From positions 22,084,597-22,148,596 of the forward strand of contig CM046347.1 of assembly GCA_025403435.1 (NCBI GenBank): a stretch of DNA of 64,000 nucleotides, given 5' to 3'. Positions 5,138-52,001 of this stretch are shown piece after piece. A model generated the notes under the pieces. The model was given only the letters and a program-made list of their open reading frames with translations, was not told where the DNA came from and searched no databases. Source of the DNA: Artocarpus heterophyllus (Eukaryota > Streptophyta > Magnoliopsida > Rosales > Moraceae). The translations under genes were made by a program, and so were the position numbers. Each line of letters begins with the position of its first letter. Positions within the stretch are counted from its first letter, which is position 1.

Positions 5138-5144
5138 GAATTTT

Positions 5145-12069: not shown

Positions 12070-12074
12070 CCTTT
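12070..12074. repeat. Target-site duplication, left copy (CCTTT)
   Basis: CCTTT directly precedes the LTR start TGTGACACCC and recurs at 21664-21668 directly after the 3' LTR end GCGTTACA. This defines the element as one insertion. Confidence 0.9.
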
Positions 12075-14430
12075 TGTGACACCCGTTATTCTCCTAACGG
12101 GTATTGAGGTAATAAATTAATTTTTAGTGTATAAAAAAAATTGCTTCATTTAAATTTATTTTATAATATTTATTTTTATCTATTTTTAAATTTTCTAAAA
12201 TTCTCCTATATTTATTTAGTATGATTACTAAAAAGTCTTAGAACTTCTAATAAATCTCAAAAATGTCATATTGGCATTATGTGTGTTAAAGTCTTTAGAT
12301 GAGACATAAGGATATCTTTTCCAACTACTCTTGACCCTCATTTTCTTTATTTCCTCCGTGACATGCTTCAACATGTCTCCTCTATAATTGTTTCTATCAC
12401 TTCTCTTCAAAGACTTCATCTTTTCTTCCTTTCTCTTCCACGGTTCCCACACTCTTCTTCTCATTTCTTTGCTGAAGCAAAATACTTAGAGAACTTCTTC
12501 AAGGCAGCCATAAAAATCAGCCACCATCACCTCCATTTGAGCAAGAATTTCAGTCATACCGAAGTAAAGGAACCTGTTTTGAAGCCATTTCAAGCTTCCA
12601 ACTAACCATAATCCGAGGTTAGAATCTTATGAACAAATTTAGTCTTTCATTTATAAATTTTCTTTTATACTAAAGGATTATTCAAATTTGCGTTCTTAAA
12701 CCTAAGTATATGTTTGTTGCTATTTTGGAGCATATGTATGAAGTCTAAGTGTATATGCCCTAGACAGAAAATTTATATTGTTAAACTTTGTAATACCTCT
12801 ATGGGCAGTGGTTATTTCTTGAAATTCTAAGATTAAATTAAAATGAATTTTATGAATTGGTTTGCATATTTGAAAAGTAGCATCCTAGGCTTTCTAACGA
12901 GCTATCATAAACCTAAATCGGAGTTGTATTTTATTTTCTAAGAATTATTCAATTTTTGTATTGGAAACTAGTAAATCTGCCAGTTTGTTATGGTATACCA
13001 GCTGCTAACCTGAACCAAGAACCCATCTTTGCTCACCACCTAATTCTTTAATGTCTTGCAACCTTTCCAATATTATCCTAAGTGATTGATGAATCTTATT
13101 AGGGACTAAAACATATAGATTACTTGTTCACATTTTATATTGTGTTAAGACAAAAATTGTTTACTGTGGTATTCAAAAGAGATTTATATAAAAGCTTTAA
13201 TGGCATACTAGTAAGATAGGTTTACACATGATTTATTTATGAATGTAGTTGTATGTTGTGCTTTAGTTTTAATTGTCCTTATGCACGCCTTAGGATCAAG
13301 GGAGTATGGAGCTAACGTTAATTGATTCCAAGATTAAAAGATTGTTGATAAGCTTGAAAGGTAGGGATTCTATTACTCATCTTTTGTGAGGTTTTTATAG
13401 AATTAGAATTGATTGTTTTGCCGCAATATATATATCTATGTTGAACTAATATTATATGAGTATCACATATGAAACTATGACATGGAATCGTCTTGTATTG
13501 TACGGTGAGGAACATAATGAATTGACACATGTTATAAATTGAGAAGCATGGTTAGGAAAACTAACTCTATTAATAATGATTCAATATAGAGAAATTGTGA
13601 GACATGAAGAGGGCGACGGTTACGTCCTTGGGCATGAATACCCTAAAAGGTAAAATAGGGGGAAGGCGATGACGCTTCCTTGGGTTGAAAGTCCCAGAAC
13701 ACACTGTACAGGAATCGACTTGGTGAGGACTCGGGGCTTGATGTCCCCTCACCGGAACACCCTTGGAATGTTTATAGGGTGATCAAGTGCGCCCATTTGG
13801 GTTTCGATGAGTTGAGTGATACTCAATTTAACATGGATACCTAGGAACAATGATGATTGGTAATATTTGTATAAATGTGTAATTATGACACTTGGTAACG
13901 ATTAACTACGGTATCCATAAGATGTGATCATAATAAATCTCATAATCTGGAATATGATGTAACTTACTAACCATGCAGGTTTTAATGTGGTAATGATAAA
14001 AACCTAAAGGTGAGTAATGGCTTTCTCTACTGAGCATAGTGTCGCTCATTCCCTTATATTTTTATCTTTTCAGGACTCACTAAGTGTGAGGTGGCTACGA
14101 GAAATATAGTTGAGGAAGTGATGTAGCTATATTACATTGGGACTGCTTCAATTGTTGAGAATGTTCTTCATGATAATGTAAGCATCAATTGTTACTTTCT
14201 GTGACTGTATAACAATGTGTTGAGGGTTAAAATGATGATGACAACAGTTTATTTTATTAAATTTAATGTGCTACATTAAACTGTGGTTTATTTATCGTTT
14301 ATATTTTTATTTTTGAGTTGAGAGTTTTCATTTAAGTCCCGGGCAAATTTTATTTTTAAGGTTTTACTTTTATTATTTATTTTTATTTTATCTCATTAAA
14401 AACTGTTAACCCCCATATAGTGGCGTTACA
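12075..14430 (+). mobile_element. 5' LTR of the cargo element
   Basis: 2356 bp, from TGTGACACCC to GGCGTTACA. Bases 12081-12088 (ACCCGTTA) pair perfectly with 12095-12102, a hairpin at the extreme LTR end. It is nearly identical to 19300-21663. The opposed small open frames at 12228/12363 are repeated in each LTR copy and are not considered genes. Confidence 0.9.
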
Positions 14431-14437
14431 GAATTTT

Positions 14438-14450
14438 TGGTATCAGAGCC
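14438..14450 (+). other. Primer-binding site, initiator Met tRNA
   Basis: TGGTATCAGAGCC lies seven bases after the 5' LTR. It is the standard complement of the 3' end of plant initiator tRNA-Met used to prime minus-strand DNA synthesis. Confidence 0.85.
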
Positions 14451-16011
14451 TAGGTTCGGTTAACCTAGGGAGTGTAGCACCACTTTAAAAAAAATATATT
14501 TTTGAGATGGTTTTGAAGCTGAATTTTCATTGTCATCATCAAAATGAACCTTCACATTGATTTATACAGTCTAGAAGGATGTAACATGGAAAGGCCATAG
14601 AATGAAAATATTAATAATTATATAAGTACAATAATTATATAGAAGGAAAGTATTAATAGTTATGAGGGAATGATAATTATATGGAATGAGTTTATAAGTA
14701 GATTGCTTATGAGAGATTCGTATAATATTTGGATCTATAAGCATATCTAATTCGTATAAACGATGAGAAATTCGTATAGATACGAGGATTTAAAAGCCTT
14801 TTGTCTCGTGAAAAACAATAAGAAATATAAGGCTTGATTTATTGATTTTAAAGTTTGACATAGATATGCCAAATTTTTCGTAATTGATTCAAACCTAAGT
14901 AATGATTATGTGTGGATTCGATGGAGCACATAAGTGTCAATATCTTTTCTTAAAAGTTCTATTTAGTTGAGGAATATGAGATAAGTTGGGAACCTATGGT
15001 ATTGAATCTTGAGAGAGATAAATGTTAGACTTTTGGTCTGTTGAGGCTGTGTAAAGTCTAGAATGCATGAATCTCAAAATTGGAATATTTTGTTACGTAC
15101 ATTGTATTTAAGTGTATCAGTGAATCTTTATATATAGATGCAATAGAAAAATGATCAATAGGAGTTTCCTTAAGTAAATCATAATACTTAAGGCACTTAT
15201 AATAATTTTGAATAATTACGATAAAATGTTTAAGTTTTAGATGTTTAGATGTGAATCTTTTGGTTACCTAAGGTTTTGTTATATGAGGAAATTATATATT
15301 GTATGAGTAGAATTGTGGGGATTGTAGATGTTCTTAAGTAGTAACATCTAGTGTCTTTGTTCATTGATATGGTCTACGTTGAAAGACGTAAATCGTATTG
15401 ATTTCAAGGTTAGTCGCATTCTAAACCCTTGGTAGTAATGATGATGAATCCATTGATAGATGTTAAGTATTATGAATAACATATGGGTGTATGTATTGTT
15501 CAATAAGGTTTTGATTAAAACAAAATTATTTGAGTTGCTGGAAGATCCTTGTTGTCGTTAAATTAGATTTGTTGTTCATAGTTAACTTTATCTATAGTGG
15601 GCTTTAAATTGGGTTTAAGATTTATACAAATTGGTTTTCAATTTTATGTTTGTTATTTAACTCGTTCTAAATGTGTTAAGGCCCGAAACAACCTGACCAT
15701 TTTCAACTAAGAACATTTGGGCCTAGTTCAAATCTTAAATCAGTTTGATTCACACTGTCTCTCCCACGTGGTCTCTATACGTGTCATATACAGTGGTTTA
15801 ATCATTGTTTACATATACGTTTACTGTGCATAGGAGCTTATTTCTCCGAGTTCACTTTTTCTCTCTTAATTTGTTATTTTCTCTCTAAATCGTAAATCCT
15901 CTTCTTTTTCATTAGAAATTCTTCTTTTCCTCTAAAAGAAGAAGGAATTCTAGGATTCTGCAATTTACTATCTTAATTTTTCCTTTCTATTTACTCTTCT
16001 TTCATCTCATC
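14451..16011 (+). other. Gag-less leader and putative cargo promoter region
   Basis: About 1.5 kb with no gag-like frame. The last part changes character: a G-box-like CCACGTGG near 15766, TATA-like CTATAC near 15775, then a pyrimidine-rich leader (about 15840-16010) ending at the ATG of the Cys-rich ORF. This resembles the promoter and 5' UTR of a plant gene more than a retroelement leader. That reading is an inference from composition. Confidence 0.4.
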
Positions 16012-16533
16012 ATGGACCCAAAGTATCAACACTTGAGAAAGTATTTCCCATCACTCTTCCAAAAGATTCTCAGAAAGAAATACAAGGCTAGAATTACTCG
16101 GTTGTGGATTCTTATGCGTTTTGGTATCCCTTGTGATGTGAGAATGTTAATAGAGGGGAAGATCCGTCCGAGTGACTTTAGTCAAGATGTCGGTTTACCA
16201 GGAACAGGTACCAGTCGAAGTGCAATGAAAAGAAGAGCTCGTGCCATCGTGGTCACTTGTAACAAATGTGGAAGACAAAATTGTAACGGTAAATGTACTT
16301 CACCTGGTTATATGTCTACGAATAGAGAGGATAAAATAAGGTTTTGTAGGAATGGACTTTCAAAGGAGAACTTGGATAGCATCCATCCTCCTCTCCACGG
16401 TCACCCTAGTGGATATGTTCAAGGAGCTATTTTTAAACTCTGGCCTAAATTTTATACAGAAAGACAACGCCTCAGGAATATGGTATTTCTAGATCCTGTT
16501 TGCCAAGCCATAAGAAAACTGGATGGGGAATAA
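16012..16533 (+). CDS. Basic cysteine-rich protein, cargo ORF 1 (intact copy)
   Basis: 173 codons, ATG to TAA, no internal stop. The N-terminal half starts MDPKY and is Lys/Arg-rich with KYKARITRLW (residues ~23-32). The middle has a basic run MKRRARAIVV (about 72-81) followed at once by C-x2-C-x4-C-x3-C (CNKCGRQNCNGKC), a likely zinc site. The C-terminal half contains SGYVQGAIFKLWP. A homologue with the same start, basic run, Cys block and C-terminal block lies at 46315 in an unrelated element. The arrangement of an Arg-rich run leading directly into a Cys cluster recalls cysteine-rich nucleic-acid-binding proteins of plant RNA viruses (carlavirus type, often silencing suppressors). That is a motif impression only. 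I do not recognise the N- and C-terminal parts. Other readings are a domesticated host gene or a retroelement accessory protein. Confidence 0.75.
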   Translation: MDPKYQHLRKYFPSLFQKILRKKYKARITRLWILMRFGIPCDVRMLIEGKIRPSDFSQDVGLPGTGTSRSAMKRRARAIVVTCNKCGRQNCNGKCTSPGYMSTNREDKIRFCRNGLSKENLDSIHPPLHGHPSGYVQGAIFKLWPKFYTERQRLRNMVFLDPVCQAIRKLDGE

Positions 16534-17176
16534 GTCATCGCTCTATAAAGGTTATTTAGTCTTTACTTATTTGAAGCAGTTTTAGCTGATGTTCAACAGT
16601 TTGTGTTTTTCTTTTACTCAGAATATTTGCTTTTGTGTTTGAAATAATTGTGATTATTAGATTGATACAGTAAGTGTTAATATCTTATTTAATTTATGAT
16701 TTTCTTAAATATATATATAATAAAATATATTATCTTATCAGACACGTTACATACGGTACAGTAATATGTTTGAATTTTGAAAAGCTTATCCAGATATTTC
16801 AAGATTTGTGTCTCAAATTTCAAAAGTTCTATAGTATTTGTCGTTTATATTAAATTTCTAGACTTGGTGTATATTTGTCAAAAAGTCTACAGTTGTGTCA
16901 TGAGGGTCTTCTGTCAAATTGTTCTCAATTGTCAAAAGTTATACAATTAGAGTCTAATCTTTTTCAAAAAATGAATCAGATTTTCTGTAAACTATCAATC
17001 ACCTTATCTTACTTTCTTATCCGCACAAGATTTTGTTTAAATCTTTGGATTACCTTTTCATTACCTACTCGTCTATCTCTTTAGCCCTTTTTGTATATTT
17101 CTCATCTTTAAAATCTCATGTAGAACCCGAAGTCTAAGTGGAGCAGACATTAAGCAACCACTTCTATAAACCAAAT
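16534..17176 (+). other. Spacer between cargo ORFs with TTGTCAAAA motifs
   Basis: Non-coding. It contains TTGTCAAAAAGTCTACAG at 16875 and TTGTCAAAAGTTATACAA at 16929. The same motif occurs twice (47232, 47261) in the corresponding spacer of the Athila element, so it is a shared part of the cassette. The small frame at 16875 spans these motifs and has no counterpart in the other copy. Confidence 0.5.
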
Positions 17177-17827
17177 ATGTCTACCTCCCAGTCCACGAAG
17201 AAAATAAAGAATGTCTGTGTCTTTTGTGGTTCCAGCCTTGGAAAAGATAAACCTTATTTAGAAGCTGCAAATCACTTAGGGCAAGTCCTAGCACACAAGT
17301 AGATTTACATAATCTATGGGGGTGGTAGTATAAAAATGATGGAAAATATGGGACTAGCAGCTAGGTCTAGCGACGCTACAGTTGTAAGAATTTGGCCTCA
17401 TATTCCAGTTGAAGGAAACCTTTATAAGGAAGCCATAGGTAAGGGAGAAGGAGTCAGGAGTATCCCTAAAAATTTTAAAGACATAATCTATAATTCTGAT
17501 GCTTTTATAGCATTACCTGGTGGTCTAGGTACTCTTGAGGAAATATTCGTAGTTGCTTGTGGGCAATTGTTGGGCTTTTATTCCAAACCTTTGGGACTGC
17601 TGAATGTAAATGGTTTTTATGACGGTCTTTTGAAATTTCTAGATTACGCTGTGGAAGAAAACATCACTACAGAATCGGAGAGACAAATCTTTGTTACTGC
17701 TTCAACAGCTGAGGAATTGATAGATAAAATGCAAATCATACATCCAGAATCCGACACTGCAACATCCAAGCTTGAATGGGAAAGGGAAAGCCGGGAGCGG
17801 CCAATTGATTTGAATCTCCATCTGTAA
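17177..17827 (+). pseudogene. LOG-like (cytokinin phosphoribohydrolase family) ORF, one in-frame stop
   Basis: 216 codons from ATG 17177 to TAA 17825, about the normal LOG length, intronless, interrupted only by TAG at codon 42 (17300-17302). Motifs in order are NVCVFCGSS (residues ~12-20), IYGGGS (nucleotide-binding Gly loop), DAFIALPGGLGTLEE (PGG.GT..E at 114-122), then SKPLGLLNVNG and FLDYAVEE. LOG enzymes release free cytokinin from its riboside 5'-monophosphate in the cytosol. Here the segment before SDAF, normally with a catalytic Arg-Lys (QRK..M), reads IPKNFKDIIYN, so the pair appears absent and activity is doubtful. Host LOG genes have introns, so capture through RNA is likely. Because only one stop is present, it may be a recent pseudogene or belong to an element with intact sisters. 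Confidence 0.8.
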
Positions 17828-17962
17828 TCTTTTTGTTTTATCTTTGGCATGTAGGCATGTGTGTCCGTATTTCGTGTGTTACGAATAACCGTTTGCCTTG
17901 TATTCTGTGTTTCTTGTGGTACGTCGTTGTTAAATCTTTTAGATTCATTGAGCCTAATGCCG

Positions 17963-18005
17963 GGATGGCTGGATACAGAGTACTTGATGCTCTCGAAACG
18001 CATCC
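17963..18005 (+). other. Conserved hairpin 1a, downstream of LOG-like ORF
   Basis: Outer stem GGATG (17963-17967) with CATCC (18001-18005). Inside are GCTGGATA, an inner AGAG...CTCT stem, and CGAAACG before the 3' arm. It shares internal consensus with four other hairpins in the two cargo elements, while its outer stem sequence differs. Confidence 0.7.
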
Positions 18006-18057
18006 TTCTTAAGGTCCGATCTTTTGTTTATCGATGTTTTTGTATCCTATAAGCATG

Positions 18058-18117
18058 CATGATATGGATAGCTGGTATACGGAGTGCCTTGTACTCTCGA
18101 AACGTATCCGTATCATG
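18058..18117 (+). other. Conserved hairpin 1b, downstream of LOG-like ORF
   Basis: Outer stem CATGATATGGATA (18058-18070) pairs with TATCCGTATCATG (18105-18117), 13 pairs including one G-U. Inside are GCTGGTATAC, inner stem GGAGT/ACTCT, then CGAAACG. It is the longest stem of the family. Confidence 0.8.
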
Positions 18118-18540
18118 TTTGTAATGTGTAATATTCTGTTAATATTATGTGGAAGTACTAGAGTCAGTTATGGGGATATTCCATATGAAATATGAGTATA
18201 TTATTTGGGTTGAATGTTTGTGTCATGAGGATAGCTGTTTAATGAAAAATATGTCGGGTATGTTTGCAACTCTGAGATTCCGTTTAATATCTCTATGAAT
18301 AAGTTTAATGTATGGTTTTGAATAGAAGTGTTTGTGATATATGTTTTATGATTATGTTCTAGTTTATTAGTTGAGGGATTTAGGAGTAAGATTTATTATG
18401 CAAGTAAATAAGTGGAGATACGATGACTTAAATTTGGAGGACAAACAACATTAACGGTTTAGACTCGGAATTGGAATCATAATGGAATTAAAATTTTTAC
18501 TAGTATTGCTAGAATTGAAATTTCGAGGACGAAATTTCTT
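18118..18540 (+). other. 3' internal region of cargo element
   Basis: AT-rich, no coding frame. It ends AATTTCGAGGACGAAATTTC just before the polypurine tract, a sequence commonly seen at this position in plant Ty3 chromovirus-type elements (from memory of the family). Confidence 0.5.
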
Positions 18541-18555
18541 TAAGGGGGGTAGAGC
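18541..18555 (+). other. Polypurine tract of cargo element
   Basis: TAAGGGGGGTAGAGC directly precedes the LTR start TGTGACACCC. This is the typical plus-strand primer of Ty3/gypsy elements. Confidence 0.85.
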
Positions 18556-19299
18556 TGTGACACCCGTTATTCTCCTAACGGGTATTGAGGTAATTAAATT
18601 AATTTTTAGTGTATAAAAAAAATTGCTTCATTTAAATTTATTTTACAATATTTATTTTTATCTATTTTTTTAAAATTTTCTAAAATTCTCCTATATTTAT
18701 TTAGTATGTTTACTAAAAAGTCTTAGAACTTCTAATAAATCTCAAAAATGTCATATTGGCATTATGTGTGTTAAAGTCTTTAGATGAGACATAAGGATAT
18801 CTTTTCCAACTACTCTTGACCCTCATTTTCTTTATTTCCTCCGCGACATGCTTCAACATGTCTCCTCTATAATTGTTTCTATCACTTCTCTTCAAAGACT
18901 TCATCTTTTCTTCCTTTCTCTTCCACGGTTCCCACACTCTTCTTCTCATTTCTTTGCTGAAGCAAAATACTTAGAGAACTTCTTCAAGGCAGCCATAAAA
19001 ATCAGCCACCATCACCTCCATTTGAGCAAGAATTTCAGTCATACCGAAGTAAAGGAACCTGTTTTGAAGCCATTTCAAGCTTCCAACTAACCATAATCCG
19101 AGGTTAGAATCTTATGAACAAATTTAGTCTTTCATTTATAAATTTTCTTTTATACTAAAGGATTGTTCAAATTTGCGTTCTTAAACCTAAGTATATGTTT
19201 GTTGCTATTTTGGAGCATATGTATGAAGTCTAAGTGTATATGCCCTAGACAGAAAATTTATATTGTTAAACTTTGTAATACCTCTATGGGCAGTTGTTA
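18556..19299 (+). mobile_element. Partial LTR copy (first 744 bp) preceding the full 3' LTR
   Basis: It matches the first 744 bp of the LTR almost base for base and stops at GGGCAGTTGTTA, where the full LTR restarts (TGTGACACCC at 19300). There is no target duplication around the restart and the remainder of the interrupted LTR does not follow. This is therefore not a nested insertion. It fits template switching or unequal recombination. Confidence 0.85.
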
Positions 19300-21663
19300 T
19301 GTGACACCCGTTATTCTCCTAACGGGTATTGAGGTAATTAAATTAATTTTTAGTGTATAAAAAAAAAATTGCTTCATTTAAATTTATTTTACAATATTTA
19401 TTTTTATCTATTTTTTTAAAATTTTCTAAAATTCTCCTATATTTATTTAGTATGTTTACTAAAAAGTCTTAGAACTTCTAATAAATCTCAAAAATGTCAT
19501 ATTGGCATTATGTGTGTTAAAGTCTTTAGATGAGACATAAGGATATCTTTTCCAACTACTCTTGACCCTCATTTTCTTTATTTCCTCCGCGACATGCTTC
19601 AACATGTCTCCTCTATAATTGTTTCTATCACTTCTCTTCAAAGACTTCATCTTTTCTTCCTTTCTCTTCCACGGTTCCCACACTCTTCTTCTCATTTCTT
19701 TGCTGAAGCAAAATACTTAGAGAACTTCTTCAAGGCAGCCATAAAAATCAGCCACCATCACCTCCATTTGAGCAAGAATTTCAGTCATACCGAAGTAAAG
19801 GAACCTGTTTTGAAGCCATTTCAAGCTTCCAACTAACCATAATCCGAGGTTAGAATCTTATGAACAAATTTAGTCTTTCATTTATAAATTTTCTTTTATA
19901 CTAAAGGATTATTCAAATTTGCGTTCTTAAACCTAAGTATATGTTTGTTGCTATTTTGGAGCATATGTATGAAGTCTAAGTATATATGCCCTAGACAGAA
20001 AATTTATATTGTTAAACTTTGTAATACCTCTATGGGCAGTGGTTATTTCTTGAAATTCTAAGATTAAATTAAACTGAATTTTATGAATTGGTTTGCATAT
20101 TTGAAAAGTAGCATCCTAGGCTTTCTAACGAGCTATCATAAACCTAAATCGGAGTTGTATTTTATTTTCTAAGAATTATTCAATTTTTGTATTGGAAACT
20201 AGTAAATCTGCCAGTTTGTTATGGTATACCAGCTGCTAACCTGAACCAAGAACCCATCTTTGCTCACCACCTAATTCTTTAATGTCTTGCAACCTTTCCA
20301 ATATTATCCTAAGTGATTGATGAATCTTATTAGGGACTAAAACATATCGATTACTTGTTCACATTTTATATTGTGTTAAGACAAAAATTGTTTACTGTGG
20401 TATTCAAAAGAGATTTATATAAAAGCTTTAATGGCATACTAGTAAGATAGGTTTACACATGATTTATTTATGAATGTAGTTGTATGTTGTGCTTTAGTTT
20501 TAATTGTCCTTATGCACGCCTTAGGATCAAGGGAGTATGGAGCTAACGTTAATTGATTCCAGGATTAAAAGATTGTTGATAAGCTTGAAAGGTAGGGATT
20601 CTATTACTCATCTTTTGTGAGGTTTTTATAGAATTAAAATTGATTGTTTTGCCGCAATATATATATATCTATGTTGAACTGATATTATATGAGTATCACA
20701 TATGAAACTATGACATGGACTCGTCTTGTATTGTACGGCGAGGAACATAATGAATTGACACATGTTATAAATTGAGAAGCATGGTTAGGAAAACTAACTC
20801 TATTAATAATGATTCAATATAGAGAAATTGTGAGACATGAAGAGGGCGACGGTTACGTCCTTGGGCATGAATACCCCAAAAGGTAAAATAGGGGGAAGGC
20901 GATGATGCTTCCTTGGGTTGAAAGTCCCAGAACACACTGTACAGGAATCGACTTGGTGAGGACTCGGGGCTTGATGTCCCCTCACCGGAACACCCTTGGA
21001 ATGTTTATAGGGTGATCAAGTGCGCCCATTTGGGTTTCGATGAGTTGAGTGATACTCAATTTAACATGGATACCTAGGAACAATGATGATTGGTAATATT
21101 TGTATAAATGTGTAATTATGACACTTGGTAATGAATAACTACGGTATCCATAAGATGTGATCATAATAAACCTCATAATCTGAAATATGATGTAACTTAC
21201 TAACCATGCAGGTTTTAATGTGGTAATGATAAAAACCTAAAGGTGAGTAATGGCTTTCTCTACTGAGCATAGTGTCGCTCATTCCCTTATATTTTTATCT
21301 TTTCAGGACTCACTAAGTGTGAGGTGGCTACGAGAAATATAGTTGAGGAAGTGATGTAGCTATATTACATTGGGACTGCTTCAATTGTTGAGAATGTTCT
21401 TCATGATAATGTAAGCATCAATTGTTACTTTCTGTGACTGTATTACAATGTGTTGAGGGTTAAAATGATGATGACAACAGTTTATTTTATTAAATTTAAG
21501 GTGCTACATTAAACTGTGGTTTATTTGTCGTTTATATTTTTATTTTTGAGTTGAGAGTTTTCATTTAAGTCCCGGGCAAATTTTATTTTTAAGGTTTTAC
21601 TTTTATTATTTATTTTTATTTTATCTCTTTAAAAACTGTTAACCCCCATATAGGGGCGTTACA
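19300..21663 (+). mobile_element. 3' LTR of the cargo element
   Basis: 2364 bp, from TGTGACACCC to GGCGTTACA, nearly identical to the 5' LTR with a few substitutions and small indels. It is followed by the target duplication CCTTT at 21664-21668. Confidence 0.9.
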
Positions 21664-21668
21664 CCTTT

Positions 21669-35591: not shown

Positions 35592-35593
35592 AT

Positions 35594-40061: not shown

Positions 40062-42178
40062 TGATGAGACTGTAAAAGTGTACATTTTCTAAGGCTTAAA
40101 TCATTTGTTTACTCTTTTATTTCTCATTAAATCCTCTAATTAATAGCATTTTGTGTTAATAAGTATTTTTGTGTCTTGGTGTGAAAATATGTTTAAAAAT
40201 ACGTTTTTAGTGTGTTTATATGTTTTTAGTAATTTTTAGAGCCATTTTGGTGTGTTAAATAAGTGTATAGTCTGTAAATAGTCAAAACCGTAAAAGTAAT
40301 GCGGTTATTTTATTTTGAGTTTTAGTGTGTTCGATAGTGTGTTTTAAATTTATAAATATGTCTTGTTATATTTTTCGTAATTTTTAAAAATATTTCCAAG
40401 TCATAAAAATTATATTTGTGCTAAACTGCAAGAGACTAGAAATTTTAGGAGTTTTTATTTAATTTTGTGTGTTTTAATGTAAAATAAATATTTTTTAAAT
40501 ATTATGTTTGTAAAATAAATAATATTAGTGTGATTGTGATTTTAGATTTGAAATATGGAGGAAAACGGAGCAAAACGACACCAAAACGGATAAAATCAGA
40601 CATCAAATGCATCAAAAAGATAAAGAAAATTTGAATTTAAATTAAATGGGACACGTGGCGTAACAAGGACGGTCGGATTCACTGTCGAATTAATCTCAGC
40701 AGTTTGAGGAAGTGATGCATGTCAATGCTTCATTCTATACGTCAGCAGAATCTCACAGTACGATCCACGTGTCGAGATATGATTGGAGAGTGCATCACAC
40801 GCGCCGACAAAGCTGCAGCGTGTCTCAAAGGGTGCAACAAGCATGTCCGATCTTGTGTGATCGTGTCCACGTGCATCCGTTCTTTGAACCGTCAGATCTG
40901 AATACTTTGACTCATCCATCGGCCTTAAATCTTGTTCCCACCTGGCCCATCTTGCCCGCGTCTAACAGCCATTGGATCTCGTTTTGAATGGTTCAGATCG
41001 TGCCTATTCCGTGCTGATCTGGTCTATGTCACACTGGATTACAAACTCAAATTCGTATACTCACCAACGCGGATCAGCGTGAAAGAAGAAGGAAATAATT
41101 CAAATCGTCAACTTTCAACAGGAAAGAGCATTAATTATAAGTGGATGTTTGTAAAATCGATTCCCTATAAATACCTTGGCATTTGCCTCAGTTAAGGAGA
41201 GCCCCGCTCGCAGAATGAAAATGTTGTTGTAATAATTATAGTCTAGTTTTTATTTTAGTTTTTAGTCTAGTTTCTTATAAAATATTTTCTATTTTATGTT
41301 GTAAAAATTATGCTCAATAATATCAGTAGTATTTTATTAATTATGTCTTTCTAAATTTCTTTTTAGCTGAGGGGAGAGGGGGAAATTCTGACAAAATTGT
41401 CTTAAACATTTTTTTTTTTTTTTAGTTTTCTAAGCTGTTGTAATGTCAAAATATTTTCTTAGAAACTTAGAATTTCAATATTCTCTTAGCTGAAACTCTG
41501 CCAAAATTACAGTTTTGATTTATCGACGACATAGACTGGTACGGATAATGCTTGAGAGGATCTTGATTACTCGTAGATAGAGAATGGCTCGGTAAATGCG
41601 TAACTTACTATCTTGGTTGTTATTTTAGTTAAGTTATGTTGAAATGCTGCTTATTTATTAAGTTGTGTTTTTGTTACATTATAGACATGGAATGACACAG
41701 TAAATGTTTGGTAAATCTTGATTTATTGTCGACATAGGATGACATAGTGTATACTTAAATCAACTAATAAATAAAAAGAGAAACTAAAATTATATTAAAG
41801 ATAATTGTCAGAATAGAACCTTTGAACCTTAACCCTGTTATTATTGTTGTTTTACTTCTTTAAATTGTCGTTATTATTGTTGTCACTCTGCTTAAATTAT
41901 TATTTGTATTTCTTGTTATTAAGGTTCCAAATTATCAAAATTTAAAAAATAAAAAATGTTGTAAAAATGTGTAAATATTGTAAATACATTCTGTGAATAA
42001 TAAATATTAATCCTCAAATTTTTCAGCTTAAATAAAAAGAAAAAGTTAATATAATACATGTATTAGAACTGAATAAATCCTTCCCTGTGGATTCGACCTC
42101 GGATTCACCGAGAAAATATTACTTGAGACAACCTTATACTTGAGGTTAGTTTAAAATGCGTAAATAGACGCGAGACCA
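40062..42178 (+). mobile_element. 5' LTR of the Athila-like element
   Basis: 2117 bp, TGATGAGACTGT...GCGAGACCA. It contains a GC-richer block at about 40690-41000 and TATA-like CTATAAATACC near 41165. The open frames at 40712-41195 are repeated in the 3' LTR and have no domain. Confidence 0.9.
41165..41174 (+). promoter_or_regulatory. Putative LTR TATA box
   Basis: CTATAAATAC in the 5' LTR, conserved at about 50988 in the 3' LTR. Probable core promoter of the element RNA. Inference from position. Confidence 0.5.
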
Positions 42179-42184
42179 AGTTTT

Positions 42185-42197
42185 TGGCGCCGTTGCC
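42185..42197 (+). other. Primer-binding site, Asp tRNA type
   Basis: TGGCGCCGTTGCC, six bases after the LTR, is the primer site characteristic of Athila-type Ty3 elements. It differs from the Met-tRNA site of the 12-kb cargo element. Confidence 0.85.
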
Positions 42198-42920: not shown

Positions 42921-45652
42921 ATGCCAGTTTGGTTTCGTGAGTCTAATAGTTGTAGATTAGTTAGGAAAAGTTTAGAACCACTTTTTGTCTCTGTTGTGTC
43001 TTCAAATTCACCAAAAATAGCTGATGATGAAAGTGTTCATAATGAAAATATTTTGAATCAACAAATCATCAATCCTGTTGTTCGCTCAATGAGAGATTAT
43101 TTGCAACCACCCTGTGAATCCACTCCATCATGTTTGGTTTTTCCTCTCAATGCTCATCACTTTAGGTTTAAACCTGAAATGATCAACTTGCTTCCCAATT
43201 TTCATGGCTTAGAATCTGAAAATCCATATCTGCACCTTAGAGAGTTTGAAGATGTTTGTGCTACCTTCACTGACCAGGAAGTTTCAAATGAAATTGTTAA
43301 GCTTAAGCTTTTTCCTTTTTCTTTAAAAGACAAAGCTAAAACTTGGCTTACTTCTTTAAAACCTAGGTCAATAGGTACATGGCAAGAAATGCAAACTGAG
43401 TTTCTGAAAAAATTCTTTCCAACACATAAGACCAATGCTTTGAAAAAACAAATTCAAAATTTTTCCCAAAATGCAAAAGAAGTTTATTTCCAAAGCTGGG
43501 AACGATTTAAAGATTTGTTGAATTCTTGCCCACATCATGGTTTTGAAAAATGACGTTACATTAGTTTTTTTTATTAAGGCTTAACTCTTGAAACCTGTCA
43601 ATTTGTTGAAACAATGTGTAATGGAGAATTCCTTGATAAAGAACCTGATGAAGCGTTAGATTTCCTTGATAATTTGGCTGACAACTCTCAATACTGGCAA
43701 CATAGTAATTCTAAAGGCTCAATTAGATCTAATCTTGCTAATACTCAAAGAGGTGTCCATCAACTTAGTCAAGAAAATGATCTAAGTGTTAGAATTGCAT
43801 GTTTGACTAAACAGATTGAAACCATGGAACGAAGGAATGTCCAAGAACCCAAAATTGAAATTTTATGTAGTGTTTGCCAAACTCTATGACACTCAACTTA
43901 TGAATACCCAATTTTTAAGGAAGAGTCCCATGAACAGGTGAATTACACAAATCAATTGAACCCACCTAGAAAGCCATTTCTATCCCCACATTCTAACACA
44001 TACAATTCACAATGGAAAAACCATCCCAATTTCAGCTGGAGAAATGATCAACCACAACAACAATATCAACCACCACTACCATTTCCACCACAAAACTCTC
44101 AAGGCCGTCCACCATTTCCATCAAATTCTCAAAATTTTCAAAGGCCTCCATAAAATTTTTCTGAAAATCTCCAATCTCGAGTCAAAACTCTTGAAGACAC
44201 TTTGCAAACTTTCATTCAGGCTCAAAAATCATTCATTCAAAAACAAGAAGTTCATAACACTCACACTTCTCAAGACATTCATGAAATTAAAGAATCTATT
44301 TCTAAACTCACTTCTTCCCTTCGCATTCAAGAAAAAGGCAAATTTCCTGCTCAACCTGTACATTATCTATCTGCAAATGAATTGCCTCTTCTAGTTCATA
44401 GTCACAACAAGAAACTGTTAATTTTGTTACAACTCTTCGAAGTGGAAAAACTGTTAATAAAACTAATCTTTTAAAAGATCAGAAAGTTAATTCAACTTTA
44501 AAAAGTGGTGATAAAATTAATAGTGATGAGGAAAATTCTGAAAAAGAAAAGAGTGTTTCAAGAGAGAAATTTGTTCCAAAGGTTCCGTTTCCTCAAGCTT
44601 TGCTTTCAAAAGAAAAGTCTGACAAAAATGCTAAAACTTTTAAACTGCTCAAACAAGTCAAAATTAACATTCCACTTTTAGATGCAATCAAGCAAGTCCC
44701 ATCTTATGGTAAATTTTTAAAAGATTGTTGTACAATTAAAAGAAAGCATAATGTGACTAAAACTGCATTTTTAGCTGAGAATGTTAGTTCTATCATTCAA
44801 CATGATTCATCATTGAAATACAAAGATCCTGGTTGTCCCATAATTTCTTGCATCATCAGAAATACTCTAATTGAACATGCTTTGTTAGACCTTGGTGCTA
44901 GTGTCAACCTCTTACCTTATTCTGTTTAACAGCAATTAGGTCTAGGTGAACTAAAGCCAACTTCTGCCACACTTCAACTAGCTGATCGATTTGTAAAAAT
45001 TCCAAGAGGTGTTGTCGAGGATGTGTTAGTCCAAATTGATAAATTTTACTACCCAGTGGATTTCATTGTTTTGGATACACAACCTGTCACAAATTCAAAT
45101 GTTCAAATTCTTGTCATTTTGGGTCGTCCATTTCTTACAACTTCTAATGCTTTGATTAATTGTAGAAATAGAATACTAAAATTGTCTTTTGGGAATATGA
45201 CTTCAAAATTCAACGTTTTTAACAAGGCACAATCACCCTTTGGAAAGTGTAAAGTGAATTTTGTTGAGAGCAGTACTTCAGGAACGTTTGTTGATCCTTT
45301 GGCTGATTTGGCTAATTCTTTTGATTCGAATGTTCCACCCAAAGTTGATAACCATCATGTGAATGTTTCTGACCAATCTCTTGAAGCAAACAATTCAAGT
45401 TTTGAAGCTGAATGTGAAAATGAAGTTTTTGAAGAAGAACCTAAGGATGAGGTGATGGGTGACACTATGGATGACCTCATGTATGATCTCATGGATGAAG
45501 AAAAATTTTAGCAAAGATTCTTTGCAGCTGCTGGCAACTTAACTTTTTGGGAGTGCTATCTTTTGAGAAGGTTTAGAGCAACTCTTCCAACAGTCATCAA
45601 CATTGATGATTCTGACTCCGATCCTGAAACTGAAATCATAGTTATAGATTAA
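42921..45652 (+). pseudogene. Athila gag-protease polyprotein, degenerate
   Basis: It opens MPVWFRESNSCRL. The gag core has MRDYLQPPCESTPSCLVFPL, INLLPNFHGLESENPYLHLR-EFEDVCATF (in two blocks), DKAKTWLTSLKP and WQEMQTEFLKKFFP, the Athila/Ty3 gag signature. A partial knuckle CSVCQTL.HSTYEYP (about 43865-43910) has lost its last Cys. A proline/Gln-rich linker follows. The aspartic protease motif LLDLGASVNLLP is at about 44882-44917, followed by ILVILGRPFLTTSNALI. The last part is acidic and ends ETEIIVID. Stops at 43551, 43887, 44151 and 44927 and frame changes make it inactive as read. Confidence 0.8.
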
Positions 45653-46042
45653 TGTTTATATCGTATTTATGTTTTTGTATTTGTTTATTGTATCTTTATT
45701 TTCTTTGTTTTTCCTAAAAATCAGAAAAATAATTTCAAAAATTCATTAAAATGGTAGAAATTATGGAGGTTATAATCAGCACGATTAGTTAGTATTTTTG
45801 TATCAACGGCCTCTAGAAATGCATTTTAATGAAATGATTTTCAATGAATTTTTCTAAATTTTAGATCTTTGTAAAAAAAAAAAATTTTAAAAAAATGAAA
45901 AACTAAAAAAAAAAAACACAAAAATATTTCATTTCTGAGTAATCTGTTAGGTTACCTTTCTTTAGTCCATTTTAGTTCAGCCCATTATTCCCGCATGCAT
46001 CTGAATTGTCTTCCCTGTGTCTGAACAGAAGTCTACCCCTTG
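45653..46042 (+). other. Junction between gag-protease and cargo
   Basis: Non-coding, A-rich. No pol sequence is recognised. The cargo cassette seems to begin between here and the TATA box at 46043. Confidence 0.5.
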
Positions 46043-46314: not shown

Positions 46315-46866
46315 ATGGATCCGAAATATGAGCACTTAAAGAAATATTTCCCTTCACTTTCTCAAAGAGAAATAAAAAAGAAGTACAAAACTAGAGTCAC
46401 TCATCTTTGGGTACTTTCACTTTTTAAGCTTCCTACTGATATTAAGATGTACATAGAAGGTCTTGTTCATTCAAGTGATGTAAATAATGTAGGTTTGCTT
46501 AGTATGGGTACAAGTCTGTGTGCTAGAAAAAGAAGAGCTCGTCGTATGGAGTCAAAATGTCATAAATGTTCTCGTCAAACTTGTTCTAGAAAATATCCCT
46601 CACCTGGTTTCATATCTAGAAATAGGGAAGATAAAATTCAGTTATGTAAAAATGGTCTTAGGAATGAAAACTTAGAAGATCTCTGAGTTTCTCTTGAGTC
46701 CCATCTAAGTGGATACGTTTGGGGGGCTATGAAACAACTCTGGCCTCAATTTCATGAAGAATAGGAACGTCTTGGGAATCTGATGCTAAAAGACCCAACT
46801 ATTCAGTTTGCGAGAATATTAGATGGAAAACAGACTCAAGATCCTTCTACTTCAGAACAAGGTTAG
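46315..46866 (+). pseudogene. Basic cysteine-rich protein, cargo ORF 1 (Athila copy)
   Basis: 183 codons in one frame from ATG to TAG 46864, broken by TGA at 46684 and TAG at 46762. It is homologous along its length to 16012-16533: start MDPKYEHLKKYFPSL, then KKKYKTRVTHLW, basic run KRRARRMESKC, Cys block CHKCSRQTCSRKY (the fourth Cys is Tyr), NREDKI and SGYVWGAMKQLWPQF. About half the residues agree by eye, so the split from the other copy is old. The upstream pyrimidine-rich leader is likewise shared in style. Its role is unknown. The loss of a Cys and two stops suggest that this copy is dead. Confidence 0.75.
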
Positions 46867-47379
46867 TAAAATATTTTTCTTTGTTTCTTTATGTGTTTGT
46901 CCCAAAAAAAAAATTTGAAAATTTATTCGAGATATGATCATGGTTTTAAGGAAAAATCATTAAAACGACTGAGTAACAGAATTTCTGGAAACGCATTTTG
47001 ATGAACAAAAGTTTTCTTGAACTCATTCTCGAATAAAATTTCATCAACAAAAAGATTTTTATTTTTGTGTGATCTATACAGTTGTTGTTTAATAATTGTG
47101 ATTGTACCGTTTATCTTATAATAATAATATCTTGACTTTTCTTCTTTTGTCAGATGCATAATTTTATTCGGTAGGTGTCTTGTGTGTCGTGTAAGATAAG
47201 CTTTGCTTCGAATTTTAAAATTTAGTCCCATTTGTCAAAAGTTGTACAGTAAAGTCTAGTTTGTCAAAAAGTTAATAGTGTTGTCAGGTACAAGTTGTTT
47301 GCAGGTGTGTCACATTTATCTGTTCTTGTCTGTCATCATAGCTGTCTTTATTTAATTTTACCCAACGTTCTCTTTAGGT
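46867..47379 (+). other. Spacer between cargo ORFs with TTGTCAAAA motifs
   Basis: It contains TTGTCAAAAGTTGTACAG at 47232 and TTGTCAAAAAGTTAATAG at 47261, matching the paired motifs of the other cassette. The reverse frame at 46938 is not supported. Confidence 0.5.
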
Positions 47380-47480: not shown

Positions 47481-48120
47481 ATGGATTCCTCGTCCCAGTC
47501 ATCTTTAAAGTTCAACAATATCTGTGTGTTTTGTGGTTCTAAATCAGAAAAAGGCATTGATTACATAAAAAATGCATTTCATTTAGGCTATGTCTTGGCT
47601 AAGAAAAAGATAAACCTTGTCTATGGAGGAGGTAGTCTAGGTTTAATGGGTACTGTCTCTGCTGGAAGACGTTCTGGAGGTACTGGAGCTTTAGGTATTA
47701 TTCTAGGTGTCCTTGCTCAAAGTCATTTATGTGGTCCTACCATTGGTGTTGAAAAAATAGTTACAGGTATGCCTGAGTGAATAAGAGACATGGAGTTTGC
47801 TTCTGATGCTTTCATTGCCTTACCTAGAGGTTTAGGAACTCTAGAGGAACTTTTTGCCATTGCTAGTTGAAAATTGTTAGGACTACACTCTAAACCTGTT
47901 GGTTTGTTAAATATAAATGGTTACTTTGACAGTTTACTTAGTTTTTTAGATTATGCTGTGGAACAAAAGTTTCTTGAGGAGTCAGGAAGAAAGATTTTTA
48001 TCTCTGCCACTACTGTAGAGGAATTGCTCGAAAAAAATGCAAGTCATTGATCCTGAAACGAACACTGCAACATCAAAGTTCTGCGAAAAATGCAAACGAG
48101 ATTGGGATCTTTCTCTCTAA
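47481..48120 (+). pseudogene. LOG-like ORF (Athila copy), two stops and one frameshift
   Basis: It starts MDSSSQSSLKFNNICVFCGS, then NLVYGGGSLGLMG (the Gly loop, better preserved than in the other copy), SDAFIALPRGLGTLEEL (the second residue of PGG is Arg), SKPVGLLNINGYFD and FLDYAVEQ, ending TATSK and a short tail. Two Trp codons seem to have become TGA (47778-47780 and within AIAS-stop-KLLG near 47868). An extra A in the run at about 48031 shifts the frame near the end. As in the copy at 17177, the residues before SDAF (RDMEFA) do not give the usual QRK..M. It is intronless like the other copy. Closest relationship is to that copy, with shared GLGTLEE and TATSK features. Confidence 0.8.
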
Positions 48121-48404
48121 ACTCTACCTCTTTTAGTTTTACTTACAACATTATTGTTTTTGTCTTTGTTTATGCTTTTGTCTTTGAATAACTGCTCTGG
48201 TAAGTATATGTTGTTACTCTTCTTACTTAATCTTGTTAAACTTTGGAACAGTGTTCAATTTTGGTTGGGGGGAGAAGGTTGTGTCTATTTTTTTTTCTTT
48301 TGTGATTGAATCTGGGACTAGTTTTAAAAACCAAGCGAAAAAATAACTAAAATAAAAAAGAGAGTGTGCTGTTTGTAAGACTTTAAGATTCATGTGTTCA
48401 TAGG

Positions 48405-48447
48405 TCGAGATGGCTGAGTGAAGGTTTTGTCCTAAAACACGTCTTGA
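48405..48447 (+). other. Conserved hairpin 2a
   Basis: Stem TCGAGATG (48405-48412) with CGTCTTGA (48440-48447), eight pairs including two G-U. Inside are GCTGAGTGAAGG, TCCT and AAAACA. It is the most diverged member of the family. Confidence 0.55.
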
Positions 48448-48522
48448 TAATGGTCCAAAAATGAAGTCCTTTGTGTTTGTAAAATTCTCATCTCTGCATT
48501 TTTCTTTTGTAGCATAAAAGTT

Positions 48523-48572
48523 TGAAGATGACTGAGGTAAGGAGTATTTATTATTCTCGAAACGCATCTTCA
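48523..48572 (+). other. Conserved hairpin 2b
   Basis: Stem TGAAGATG (48523-48530) with CATCTTCA (48565-48572), eight Watson-Crick pairs. Inside are ACTGAGGTAAGGAGT, ATTCTCGAAACG. Confidence 0.75.
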
Positions 48573-48577
48573 CCTTG

Positions 48578-48629
48578 GTAGAAATAGTTGAGTAATGGAG
48601 TGACTAGCATTCTTAAAACGTGTTTCTAC
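48578..48629 (+). other. Conserved hairpin 2c
   Basis: Stem GTAGAAATA (48578-48586) with TGTTTCTAC (48621-48629), nine pairs including one G-U. Inside are GTTGAGTAATGGAGTG and CATTCTTAAAACG. It lies six bases after hairpin 2b. Confidence 0.75.
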
Positions 48630-49876
48630 ATGATTGTAAAAACTATGTGTTTGCATTGCATTTATTATTAAAAAAAAAACAAAACAAAACCAAAAAAAAA
48701 ACAACTCAAAAAAAATAAAAAAAAAATAAAAAAATAAAAATCTAAAAATATTTTGGTGATTTGCCTCCTGTCCAATGACGATATCAAGATTATATCATTT
48801 CCATGACTTTAGGTAAAATTTAAATACTATTTGAGTTTATGTTAGTTTCTTTAGTTTGCCATATGTTTAGGATGAAATTTTCCCAAAGTTTGAACACTTA
48901 ATCTTGCACTATGATTTGTTATATTAATTTAGAGGTTGTTTATGTTAGTATAATTTGGTTTATTTTTATAAAATCTTATAATTTGTTTAAATCCCTCTTG
49001 AGGCGAAATCCTAGATAACACTAAGTTATAGATATAATTTAGGCCATCTTTGGATCGTTTGAGCCTTTGAAACTAACCTGTTTACATTCTATATCCCTAG
49101 TTACCTCGTTGTGCTTAATGTTCTATTTTTTTTGTTACCCATATATTTAGCCTAGCCTTTTTAATAAATTCATAATCCTTTTCTTGTACCTTTCACTCAT
49201 AAGGCATCTGTTTTTTCAAGTGAATTCAGGTTTATGAGGTTAGGATGAGTTAGGAATATCTACTACCTCTGTAAAATATGTACGTTTATTGTAATTCTTC
49301 AGTTATGTTGTAAAAAAAAAAAAGCGTAAAAAAAAAGAAAGTTAAATAAAAAGTGGTTGACAAAGGAAATTTCATTTCGAGTTCGGGATTGTAAACTTTA
49401 TGAATTGGATTGTACATTTTAAAGGTTCGGGATTTTTATAAGTGTCTTATGGGTGAACTGAGCCTCAAATATATCTTCCATCATACCTTTAACCCAAGCC
49501 TTACATTACAAGCCGAATAAAGTCTGAAAAGTCTTTAACAAGGTGTTATTCTACATTAGTGGAGAGAGGGATGAAAAACAAATTCATAAGAATTTATTTA
49601 AATAAATTAAGATATATTAATATAAATTTATCTGGTTAATATACATTGATTAGTAATAGAAATTCACACACACATAGGGGAAAATTCATCTTAAATATCT
49701 GACGAACTCTAGAAATGAATCATAACTTAATTAATGTTTACATCTTTACTTTGAGGCATGAATATGGGATAAACCCTGAGGAAAATCAGTGAGGAATCAC
49801 AAGTTAAAAAAAAAAAATCTTTTGTTTGTTTTAAGTTTTATCGCTTTAGTTGCTAGAGACTAGCAATACGCTGGTT
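48630..49876 (+). other. 3' internal non-coding region of the Athila element
   Basis: A-runs (48669-48735) and AT-rich DNA. 49440-49570 has TGAACTGAGCCTCAAATA and TACATTACAAGCCGAATAAA, wording typical of the untranslated region before the polypurine tract in Athila-type elements (family knowledge). No gene. Confidence 0.5.
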
Positions 49877-49884: not shown

Positions 49885-52001
49885 TGATGAGACTGTAAAA
49901 GTGTACATTTTTTAAGGCTTAAATCATTTGTTTACGCTTTTATTTCTCATTAAATCCTCTAATTAATAGCATTTTGTGTTAATAAGTATTTTTGTGTCTT
50001 GGTGTGAAAATATGTTTAAAAATGCATTTTTAGTGTGTTTTTATGTTTTTAGTAATTTTTAGAGTCATTTTGGTGTGTTAATAAGTGTCTAGTCTGTAAA
50101 TAGTCAAAACCGTTAAAGTAATACGGTTCTTTTATTTTGAGTTTTAGTGTGTTTGATAGTGTGTTTTAAATTTATAAATATGTCTTGTTATATTTTTAGT
50201 AATTTTTAAAAATATTTCCAAGTCATAAAAATTATATCTGTGCTAAACCGCAAGAGACCAGAAATTTTAGGAGTTTTTATTTAATTTTGTGTGTTTTAAT
50301 CTAAAATAAATATTTTTTAAATATTATGTTTGTAAAATAATTAATATTAGTGTGATTGTGATTTTAGATTTGAAATTTGGAGGAAAAGCGGAGCAAAACG
50401 ACACAAAAATAGATAAAATCAGACATCAAATGCATCAAAAAGATAAAGAGAATTTGAATTTAAATTAAATGAGACACGTGGCATAACAAGGACGGTTGGA
50501 TTCATTGCCAAATTAATCTCAGCCGTCTAAGGAAGAGACGCGTGTCAACGCGTCATTCGGTGCGTCAGCGAAATCTCACAGTGCTGTCCACGTGTCGAGA
50601 TATGATTGGAGAGTGCAACACACACGCCGACAAAGCTGCAGCGTGTCTCAGAGGGTGCAGCAGGCGTGTCCGATCGTGTGCGCTCGTGTCCACGTGCATC
50701 CGTTCTTTGAACCGTCAGATCTGAATAGTTTGGCTCATCCATCGGCCTTAAATCTTGGTCCCACCTGGCCCATCTTGCCCGCGTCTGACAACCATTGGAT
50801 CTCATTTTGAACAGTTCAGATTGTGCCTGTTTCGTGCTAATCTGGTCTGTGTCACACTGGATTACAAACTCAAATTCGCATACTCACCAACACGGATCAG
50901 CGTGAAAGAAGAAGGAAATAATTCAAATTGTCAACTTTCAATAGGAAAGAGCATTAATTATAAGTGGACGTTTGTAAAATCGATTCCCTATAAATACCGA
51001 GGCATTTGCCTCAGTTAAGGAGAGCCCCTCTCGCAGCATGAAAATGCTATTGTAATAATTATAGTCTAGTTTTTATTTTAGTTTTTAGTCTAGTTTCTTG
51101 TAAAATATTTTCTAATTTATGTTGTAAAAATTATGCTCAATAATATCAGTAGTACTTTATTAATTATGTCTTTGTCAATTTCTTTTTAGTTGAGGGGAGA
51201 GGGGGAAATTCTGGCAAAATTGTCTTAAACATTTTTGGTTTTTCTTAGTTTTCTAAGCTGTTGTAATGCCAAAATATTTCCTTAGAAAACTTAGAATTTC
51301 AATATTCTCTTAGCTGGAGCTCTGCCAAAATTACGGTTTTGATTTATCGACGACATAGACTGGCACGTATAATGCTTGGGAGGATCTTGATTACTCGTAG
51401 ACAGAGAATGGCTCGGTAAATGCTTAACTTACTATCTTGGTTGTTATTTTAGTTAAGTTATGTTGAAATGCTACTTATTTATTAAGTTGTGTTTTTGCTA
51501 CATTATAGACATGGAATGGCACAATAAATGCTTGATAAATGTTGATTTATTGTCGACATAGGATGACATAGTGTATACTTAAATCAACTAATAAATAAAA
51601 AGAGAAACTAAAATATATTGAAGATAATTGTCAGAATAGAACCTTTGAACCTCAGCCTTGTTATTATTGTTGTTTTACTTCTTTAAATTGTCGTTATTAT
51701 TGTTATCACTCTGCTTAAATTATTATTTGTATTTCTTGTTATTAAAGTTCTAAATTATCAAAATTAAAAAAATGAAAAATCTTGTAAAAATGTGTAAATA
51801 TTGTAAATACATTCTGTGAATAATAAATATTAATCCTCAAATTTTTCAGCTTAAATAAAAAGAAAAAGTTAATATAATATATATACTGGAACTGAATAAA
51901 TCCTTCCCTATGGGTTCGACCTCGGATTTACCGAGAAAATATTACTTGAGACAACCTTATACTTGAGGTTAGTTTAAAATGCGTAAATAGACGCGAGACC
52001 A
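49885..52001 (+). mobile_element. 3' LTR of the Athila-like element
   Basis: 2117 bp, same length as the 5' LTR, with scattered substitutions and balanced small indels. It is followed by CGAAG (52002-52006). Confidence 0.9.

Follow-up and report, generated by a model that had tools for sequence, protein, structure and literature searches.

We describe two long terminal repeat (LTR) retrotransposons, EL1 (12075-21663) and EL2 (40062-52001), that lie in a 64-kb stretch of the Artocarpus heterophyllus genome (assembly GCA_025403435.1, contig CM046347.1, positions 22,084,597 to 22,148,596 of the forward strand). This whole stretch, with a GC content of 33%, is referred to here as the window. Both elements carry the same cassette in the same order: first a basic, cysteine-rich (Cys-rich) open reading frame (ORF), then about 0.6 kb of spacer, then a LOG-like gene followed by hairpins. 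An earlier note on this DNA had described this arrangement, including spacers with two copies of a motif, and had interpreted it as an old, conserved cassette with no recognisable function or family, carried by unrelated elements. The order, the two-motif spacers and the hairpins are present in both elements as described. The encoded proteins are homologous yet diverged, with 68/123 aligned residues identical between the Cys-rich ORFs and 89/181 between the LOG-like frames. The note had treated all four genes as ORFs. Homologous genes are indeed found in both elements, but the Cys-rich gene of EL2 is broken by two stops, and the LOG-like gene is broken in EL1 as well as in EL2. The parts of the cassette, all on the plus strand, are as follows.

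16012..16533, plus strand: EL1 Cys-rich ORF, similar to viral nucleic-acid-binding proteins (NABPs), 173 aa, open; Viral_NABP E 0.0084 and Carla_C4 E 0.14, both sub-threshold alone
16875..16937, plus strand: EL1 spacer, two TTGTCAAAA motifs (at 16875 and 16929)
17177..17827, plus strand: EL1 LOG-like gene, one in-frame stop; C-terminal IDLNLHL (with LNLHL) retained
17958..18010, plus strand: EL1 hairpin 1
18061..18114, plus strand: EL1 hairpin 2
45744..45831, plus strand: EL2 candidate hairpin after the gag-protease remnant; model R2 E 0.0043, weaker and not independent
46315..46863, plus strand: EL2 NABP-like gene; open frame 46315-46686 (123 aa), homology to 46863 across stops; Viral_NABP E 1.9e-4
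46958..47003, plus strand: EL2 hairpin after the NABP-like gene, found blind by the five-copy model, E 7.6e-5
47232..47269, plus strand: EL2 spacer, two TTGTCAAAA motifs (at 47232 and 47261)
47481..48120, plus strand: EL2 LOG-like gene, two stops plus a frameshift; C terminus ...KCKRDWDLSL, read in another frame
48403..48449, plus strand: EL2 hairpin 1
48521..48574, plus strand: EL2 hairpin 2
48577..48630, plus strand: EL2 hairpin 3

The Cys-rich gene can be given a family, contrary to the earlier proposal. Both window copies alone fall below the curated cut-offs of the profiles Viral_NABP (PF05515) and Carla_C4 (PF01623), which describe the NABPs, or cysteine-rich proteins (CRPs), of flexiviruses. 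A protein search returned 15 relatives. A 17-row profile then extended the family to 747 proteins at E<=0.01, the listing covering the best 120; 125 relatives were fetched. Carla_C4 is a precomputed annotation on 124 of the 125. In a direct scan of 88 rows at E<=1e-3, Viral_NABP was matched by 64 (best E 1.1e-8) and Carla_C4 by 67 (best E 3.7e-8), with no match to the EL1 copy at this threshold. As in the viral proteins, a basic stretch (in 101/125 fetched relatives) is followed by a Cys finger of the form CxxCx4Cx3C (102/125). Both are present in the EL1 protein, and the last Cys is lost in EL2. Unlike the viral proteins, the retrotransposon NABPs are found in LTR retrotransposons, are mostly about 182 aa long among those fetched, and carry KDPVCQFIRKLDGK in an additional C-terminal region that is conserved; conservation at both the N and the C terminus extends beyond the stretch that the viral profile covers. 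Most of the fetched rows are nameless. The hosts that are named belong to Hibiscus, Xanthoceras, Populus, Acer, Rhamnella and Orobanche, which are eudicots.

Predicted folds tend in the same direction, with no match reaching E 0.001. The model of one relative, P0009 (pLDDT 83, pTM 0.71), has as its first viral match the 15-kDa protein of Cherry mottle leaf virus, with a best E of 1.3e-3. Twenty-four of the first 31 viral rows are named as NABP, RNA-binding or silencing-suppressor proteins of flexiviruses (50 of 67 viral matches were shown). These 31 also include four unnamed proteins, one betaflexivirus protein named just HP, and Citrus tristeza p23, and rows 32-50 appear unrelated. Membership of the Cys-rich gene in the flexivirus-type NABP/CRP family can be regarded as settled at the family level.

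The second gene of the cassette matches LOG profiles in both elements (Lysine_decarbox, E 8.8e-23, for EL1; LDcluster4, E 3.3e-7, for a piece of the EL2 gene). A search at E<=1e-5 gave 2050 relatives, and the 120 best were listed. Among these 120, 22 are named Reevesia pubescens loci and 7 are from Populus, which fits repeated LOG copies. The retroelement LOG shares with the plant LOG cytokinin-activating enzymes (PF03641) the family profile and the PGGxGTLEE motif, and the best PDB relative of one protein, P0031, is 2a33 (At2g37210; E 1.6e-67). It differs from them in having no intron in its reading frame and in a basic tail with an LxLxL motif. This motif, of the EAR type, lies within the last 16 residues in 107/120 relatives, always directly preceded by two or more basic residues, compared with 2.1% of shuffled proteins. 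EL1 has kept it as LNLHL; all that EL2 has is DLSL, and this in a shifted frame. The comparison with host LOGs consisted of HMMER alignments to two LOG structures from Arabidopsis, and these end ahead of the tail. In a tree, support for separating 30 LOG relatives from two Arabidopsis proteins and two bacterial ones is 99/93.

A PGGxGT-type motif is found in 111/120 LOG relatives, and the motif Arg in 93/102. The EL1 lineage departs further from plant LOG enzymes by lacking parts of the active site. The EL1 protein and P0016, a relative that is 95% identical to it and open over 216 aa, have lost GLMG and the Arg of the M-x-E-R motif and kept PGGLGTLEE; in EL2, PGG has become PRG. These residues are ones that we take to be catalytic. 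The window copies are thus best described as LOG relatives rather than as demonstrated enzymes, and in the EL1 lineage the protein may act without catalysis.

The two elements that carry these genes both have the hallmarks of LTR retrotransposons: paired LTRs with TG...CA ends, a target site duplication, a primer binding site and a polypurine tract. Their structural features, again on the plus strand, are given below.

12075..14430, plus strand: EL1 5' LTR, 98.7% identity to 19302-21663
14438..14450, plus strand: EL1 primer binding site, presumed Met type, TGGTATCAGAGCC
18542..18553, plus strand: EL1 polypurine tract, by inspection
18556..19301, plus strand: EL1 partial extra LTR copy, head-to-tail, abutting the full 3' LTR
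19302..21663, plus strand: EL1 3' LTR, 98.7% identity to the 5' LTR
40062..42178, plus strand: EL2 5' LTR, 94.1% identity to 49885-52001; empty site known
42185..42197, plus strand: EL2 primer binding site, presumed Asp type, TGGCGCCGTTGCC
42921..43553, plus strand: EL2 gag ORF, Retrotrans_gag E 2.6e-19
44402..45511, plus strand: EL2 protease-region remnants (DLGASVNLLP), stop-split, by inspection; RVP_2 E 0.08
49885..52001, plus strand: EL2 3' LTR, 94.1% identity to the 5' LTR

Most of what the earlier note said of the elements agrees with our results. Each is flanked by a perfect 5-bp duplication, CCTTT for EL1 (12070-12074 and 21664-21668) and CGAAG for EL2 (40057-40061 and 52002-52006). 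The LTRs are unrelated by BLASTN, with no match between the EL1 and EL2 LTRs at E<=1e-10. The primer binding sites differ; we take TGGTATCAGAGCC to be of Met type and TGGCGCCGTTGCC of Asp type. No pol was found in EL1 or EL2, and both are non-autonomous; EL2 has gag and apparent protease remnants. The statement that the two differ in gag finds no support: no gag or pol domain was recognised in the five EL1 pieces scanned, out of seven stop-to-stop pieces of at least 45 residues (five before the cassette, two after), and EL2 keeps its gag. LTR divergence (Kimura two-parameter distance 0.009 for EL1, 0.060 for EL2) indicates that EL1 is the younger insertion. An assembly error is unlikely at EL2, because two paralogous repeats (35173-35770 and 59029-59452) run without a break through its insertion point and represent the empty site; this comparison applies to EL2 only.

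EL2 resembles the Athila lineage, which includes non-autonomous families, in its Asp-type primer site and its gag, and EL1 differs from Athila in its Met-type primer. Distantly related elements of the Athila lineage are documented to have recombined (PMC2410132). The Met-type primer is not used by non-chromoviruses, according to PMC6317226, and exchange of the cassette would therefore span a wider gap than one within Athila.

Several lines of evidence connect the two cassettes. When the DNA of EL1 and EL2 is aligned, the two genes match at 65-71% identity; 54 bp of spacer surrounding TTGTCAAAA match at 78%, and part of a hairpin at E 0.026. The motif TTGTCAAAA occurs four times in the 64 kb, always in the two spacers, a count that is not significant by itself (22/100 shuffles reach 4); one copy per spacer sits 248 nt (EL1) or 249 nt (EL2) upstream of the LOG ATG. 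When the fetched relatives of NABP and LOG were searched against the window by tblastn, the cassette was seen in EL1 and EL2 only. In a NABP tree that included 52 of the 125 fetched relatives, EL1 and EL2 group with three database rows at 100/99, apart from the other 49. In the LOG tree, which included 30 of the 120 fetched relatives, EL1, EL2 and P0016 cluster at 94/89, with a long-branch warning. Since both gene trees join EL1 with EL2, we infer one cassette ancestor that was passed between lineages, which agrees with the earlier view of an old cassette on unrelated elements. The check for purifying selection that had been proposed also gave a positive result: between the EL1 and EL2 copies, pN/pS is 0.36 for NABP (bootstrap 0.27-0.46; 123 codons) and 0.49 for LOG (0.38-0.63; 181 codons), values that are rough because synonymous divergence is near saturation. 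Given that both gene trees join EL1 and EL2, that purifying selection is seen between the copies and that both proteins have many relatives, chance capture of the cassette is very unlikely.

The hairpins are a further component common to both elements. Five of them, two in EL1 and three in EL2, have a common build: a stem, an asymmetric internal loop (CUGAGUA-like on one side, GAAACG-like on the other), an inner stem and a loop. In an alignment of the five copies, 68/71 cells are paired (95.8%) and nine are changed on both sides, and covariation is 0.600 compared to 0.107-0.187 when the alignment is slid. When a model of these five copies was run over both strands of the window, it recovered a sixth copy, after the EL2 NABP-like gene, at E 7.6e-5, with the next matches from E 0.095; the E-values of the hairpin models are rough owing to a short calibration. 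A second model (R2), built from all seven copies with the L002 match described below included, added the weaker candidate after the EL2 gag-protease remnant (E 0.0043), which is not independent. EL2 thus has a hairpin or a candidate hairpin 3' of each of its three coding blocks. A hand-made descriptor, written after the copies had been seen, found five hairpins on the plus strand and none on the minus strand, compared to a mean of 0.75 and a maximum of 4 on both strands in 40 shuffles. Taken singly, three hairpins have unremarkable folding energies (z -0.2, -0.9, -1.3) and two have lower ones (-2.7, -2.2), so that the case for the hairpins rests on covariation and blind recovery. No Rfam covariance model matched at the hairpins up to E 1 (12000-22000 and 48100-48900).

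A third NABP gene comes from an independent contig. A scan of prokaryote contigs, run as a negative control, returned a single sequence, DAIEQH010000041.1 (1-3330; here L002), which is filed under a Nomurabacteria metagenome-assembled genome. At 32% GC, L002 encodes an integrase (rve, E 2.3e-16) and, starting 192 bases past the integrase stop, a NABP that is open over 186 aa. This NABP matches Viral_NABP at E 3.5e-8 with 34.1 bits, above the curated cut-off of 23, and Carla_C4 with 20.4 bits against a cut-off of 20.9. Positions 3026-3069 of L002 resemble EL2 49041-49084 (77%, E 0.001), and a GTTGGGGGG stretch at 2600, past the NABP, can be aligned with EL2 48264 (by MAFFT of chosen pieces, rather than as a BLAST match). 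L002 is probably stray plant retrotransposon DNA that reached this bin by a binning or contamination error. On L002 the NABP directly follows pol, the position that env occupies in some retroelements, and LOG is not an obligatory partner.

On L002, the five-copy model (R1) also matched a hairpin within the coding part of the NABP gene (E 0.0018; 0.036 pooled with the window). The stretch, picked from the match, folds at -20.8 kcal/mol, a stability that 8/2000 synonymous shuffles attain; the residues that it specifies, KDGLSRES...TLETHP, belong to a conserved section of the NABP family. When the L002 gene was scanned by sliding, the lowest z, -4.2, fell at this hairpin.

Transposons are restrained by the same small-RNA machinery that viruses counter with dedicated suppressors, and no prominent example of such a suppressor gene is known to us from a plant LTR element. 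We consider it the most probable explanation, at roughly 60%, that plant LTR retrotransposons carry the cassette as an accessory module for counter-defence and have exchanged it between lineages, a function suggested by the viral relatives of its first gene. Most database relatives of the cassette genes would then also lie in retroelements. The NABP would suppress RNA silencing, work as a nuclear transcription factor, or both, as its viral relatives do, and would thereby protect element RNA. Carlavirus CRPs are silencing suppressors, and the CRP of chrysanthemum virus B is in addition a transcription factor that causes hyperplasia (PMC12172455, in part). Delivery of the viral silencing suppressor P19 to plants raises extrachromosomal circular DNA from Ty3/gypsy elements, according to the accessible part of PMC12786186. 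The LOG-like protein could raise cytokinin in dividing tissue, where new insertions are heritable, and it could also, or instead, recruit TOPLESS-type corepressors via its EAR-type tail; LxLxL is described as an EAR motif that binds TOPLESS (PMC13252061, in part). The hairpin might label the RNA of the element for recognition by an RNA-binding protein, of which the NABP is the simplest candidate. Since the cassette proteins would act in trans, the module could be kept and exchanged even by elements that lack pol.

A number of observations weigh against this explanation. Both LOG genes of the window and the NABP gene of EL2 are decayed, and the loss of GLMG and the motif Arg makes catalysis doubtful in the EL1 LOG lineage, P0016 included. 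A retroelement location has been seen for three NABPs only, those of EL1, EL2 and L002, and no LOG is present in the 983 bases that follow the L002 NABP, so that the NABP-LOG pair is not obligate. The predicted model of the EL1 NABP is poor (pTM 0.35) and its top viral fold matches are non-significant (E 0.51 for the 15-kDa protein of Cherry mottle leaf virus and E 1.4 for a suppressor of Helleborus mosaic virus), and the fold search with P0009 gave no match at E 0.001 or better. Two of five covariation measures for the hairpins are weak, being reached by 23/500 and 84/500 shuffles. In the L002 NABP gene, two other stretches reach z values of -2.8 and -2.7, and no coding hairpin was listed by the model in the NABP of EL1 or EL2 at E<=10. 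The pooled E-value of the L002 coding hairpin and the near saturation of synonymous sites noted above belong here as well.

Alternatively, the NABP may serve retrotransposition itself, as a basic zinc-finger protein that replaces or supplements the nucleocapsid and packages element RNA via the hairpins, with silencing uninvolved. The frequency of the basic stretch and of the CxxCx4Cx3C finger in the family, the association of the hairpins with the gene and the position behind integrase on L002 are all consistent with such a role, which we regard as possible, if unlikely; the nearest viral relatives by profile and fold, however, are annotated as nucleic-acid-binding proteins and silencing suppressors. 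The two genes could also be independent passengers, the NABP being an element gene and the LOG a host gene that was gained as a spliced transcript and kept by drift, with no joint function. The broken LOG genes of the window and the NABP of L002 with no LOG nearby would be expected on this account, as would the YgdH/LOG domains of Citrus and Populus LTR elements, which the accessible part of PMC9289625 records with no mention of NABP. We think it rather unlikely, in that both gene trees join EL1 and EL2, the spacer and the hairpins are also common to the two elements, and the LOG relatives placed in the tree, most of which share the tail, cluster separately from the two Arabidopsis LOGs. Finally, the Cys-rich gene might derive from a virus: a single chance capture would have left an endogenous fragment that the elements then copied passively. 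Its relatives are viral, and pieces of non-retroviral viruses exist in plant genomes (PMC3136472). Such an origin is nevertheless highly improbable in view of the 747 relatives at E<=0.01, the purifying selection between copies, the conserved N- and C-terminal regions outside the part that matches the viral profile, and the position behind integrase on L002.

The counter-defence explanation can be extended in a more speculative direction, which we put forward tentatively and do not expect to hold in full. Plant LTR retrotransposons and flexiviruses would share one pool of silencing suppressors, with transfer in either direction. A hairpin tag recognised by the NABP would have existed first inside the NABP coding sequence, would have been copied to the 3' regions of neighbouring genes, and would now serve unrelated non-autonomous elements in trans, and the LOG would have turned into a TOPLESS-recruiting factor.

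Accessory genes as such are familiar in plant LTR elements, where extra ORFs encode YgdH/LOG, PMD, Transposase_28 and, in orchids, AlkB domains. The source cited for the YgdH/LOG domains is reportedly Steinbauerova 2011. The presence of LOG domains in LTR elements was thus already known, from Citrus and Populus (PMC9289625, in part), which, together with the family of the Cys-rich gene, replaces the earlier suggestion of a cassette with no recognisable function or family. The AlkB domain, common to flexiviruses and orchid Ty3/gypsy elements according to the same partial source, is a parallel case. In the open-access literature, a limited basis for a negative, we found no report of Carla_C4 or Viral_NABP proteins in plant genomes or retroelements, and none of the EAR-type tail, the hairpins or the same gene set in two LTR lineages. 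A plant protein family related to viral suppressors, present in three LTR elements together with a candidate RNA recognition element, makes active anti-silencing by retrotransposons testable. The finding also bears on the origin of viral suppressors, and the cassette may explain why hormone-related genes travel in retroelements.

Further sequence motifs were noted in EL2. TCTATAAAAT occurs exactly twice in the window, both strands considered, at 46043 and 47381, once ahead of each EL2 cassette gene. This placement suggests possible internal promoters of the two genes; the arrangement is not shared by EL1. On the plus strand of the window, GTTGGGGGG is found only at the EL2 3' polypurine tract (49874) and at an internal site after LOG (48264), which resembles a second, internal tract. 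Co-occurrence of NABP and LOG had also been considered from hits on contigs of equal size (e.g. 874, 905), and this candidate was dropped, as a few coincidences are expected among about 100 x 100 sizes by a rough estimate.

Other repeats in the window are related to the two elements or their surroundings. The partial LTR of EL1 at 18556-19301 is arranged as if duplicated by a template switch or unequal exchange. LTR-like pieces at 3466-5250 are 81-88% similar to the EL1 LTR and have a similar primer-site region, and a stretch at 8732-9170 on the minus strand is 72-74% similar to the EL2 LTR. EL2 itself is nested in a repeat with at least three copies in the window (34328-36442, 39000-40057, 52005-52993 and 58245-59452).

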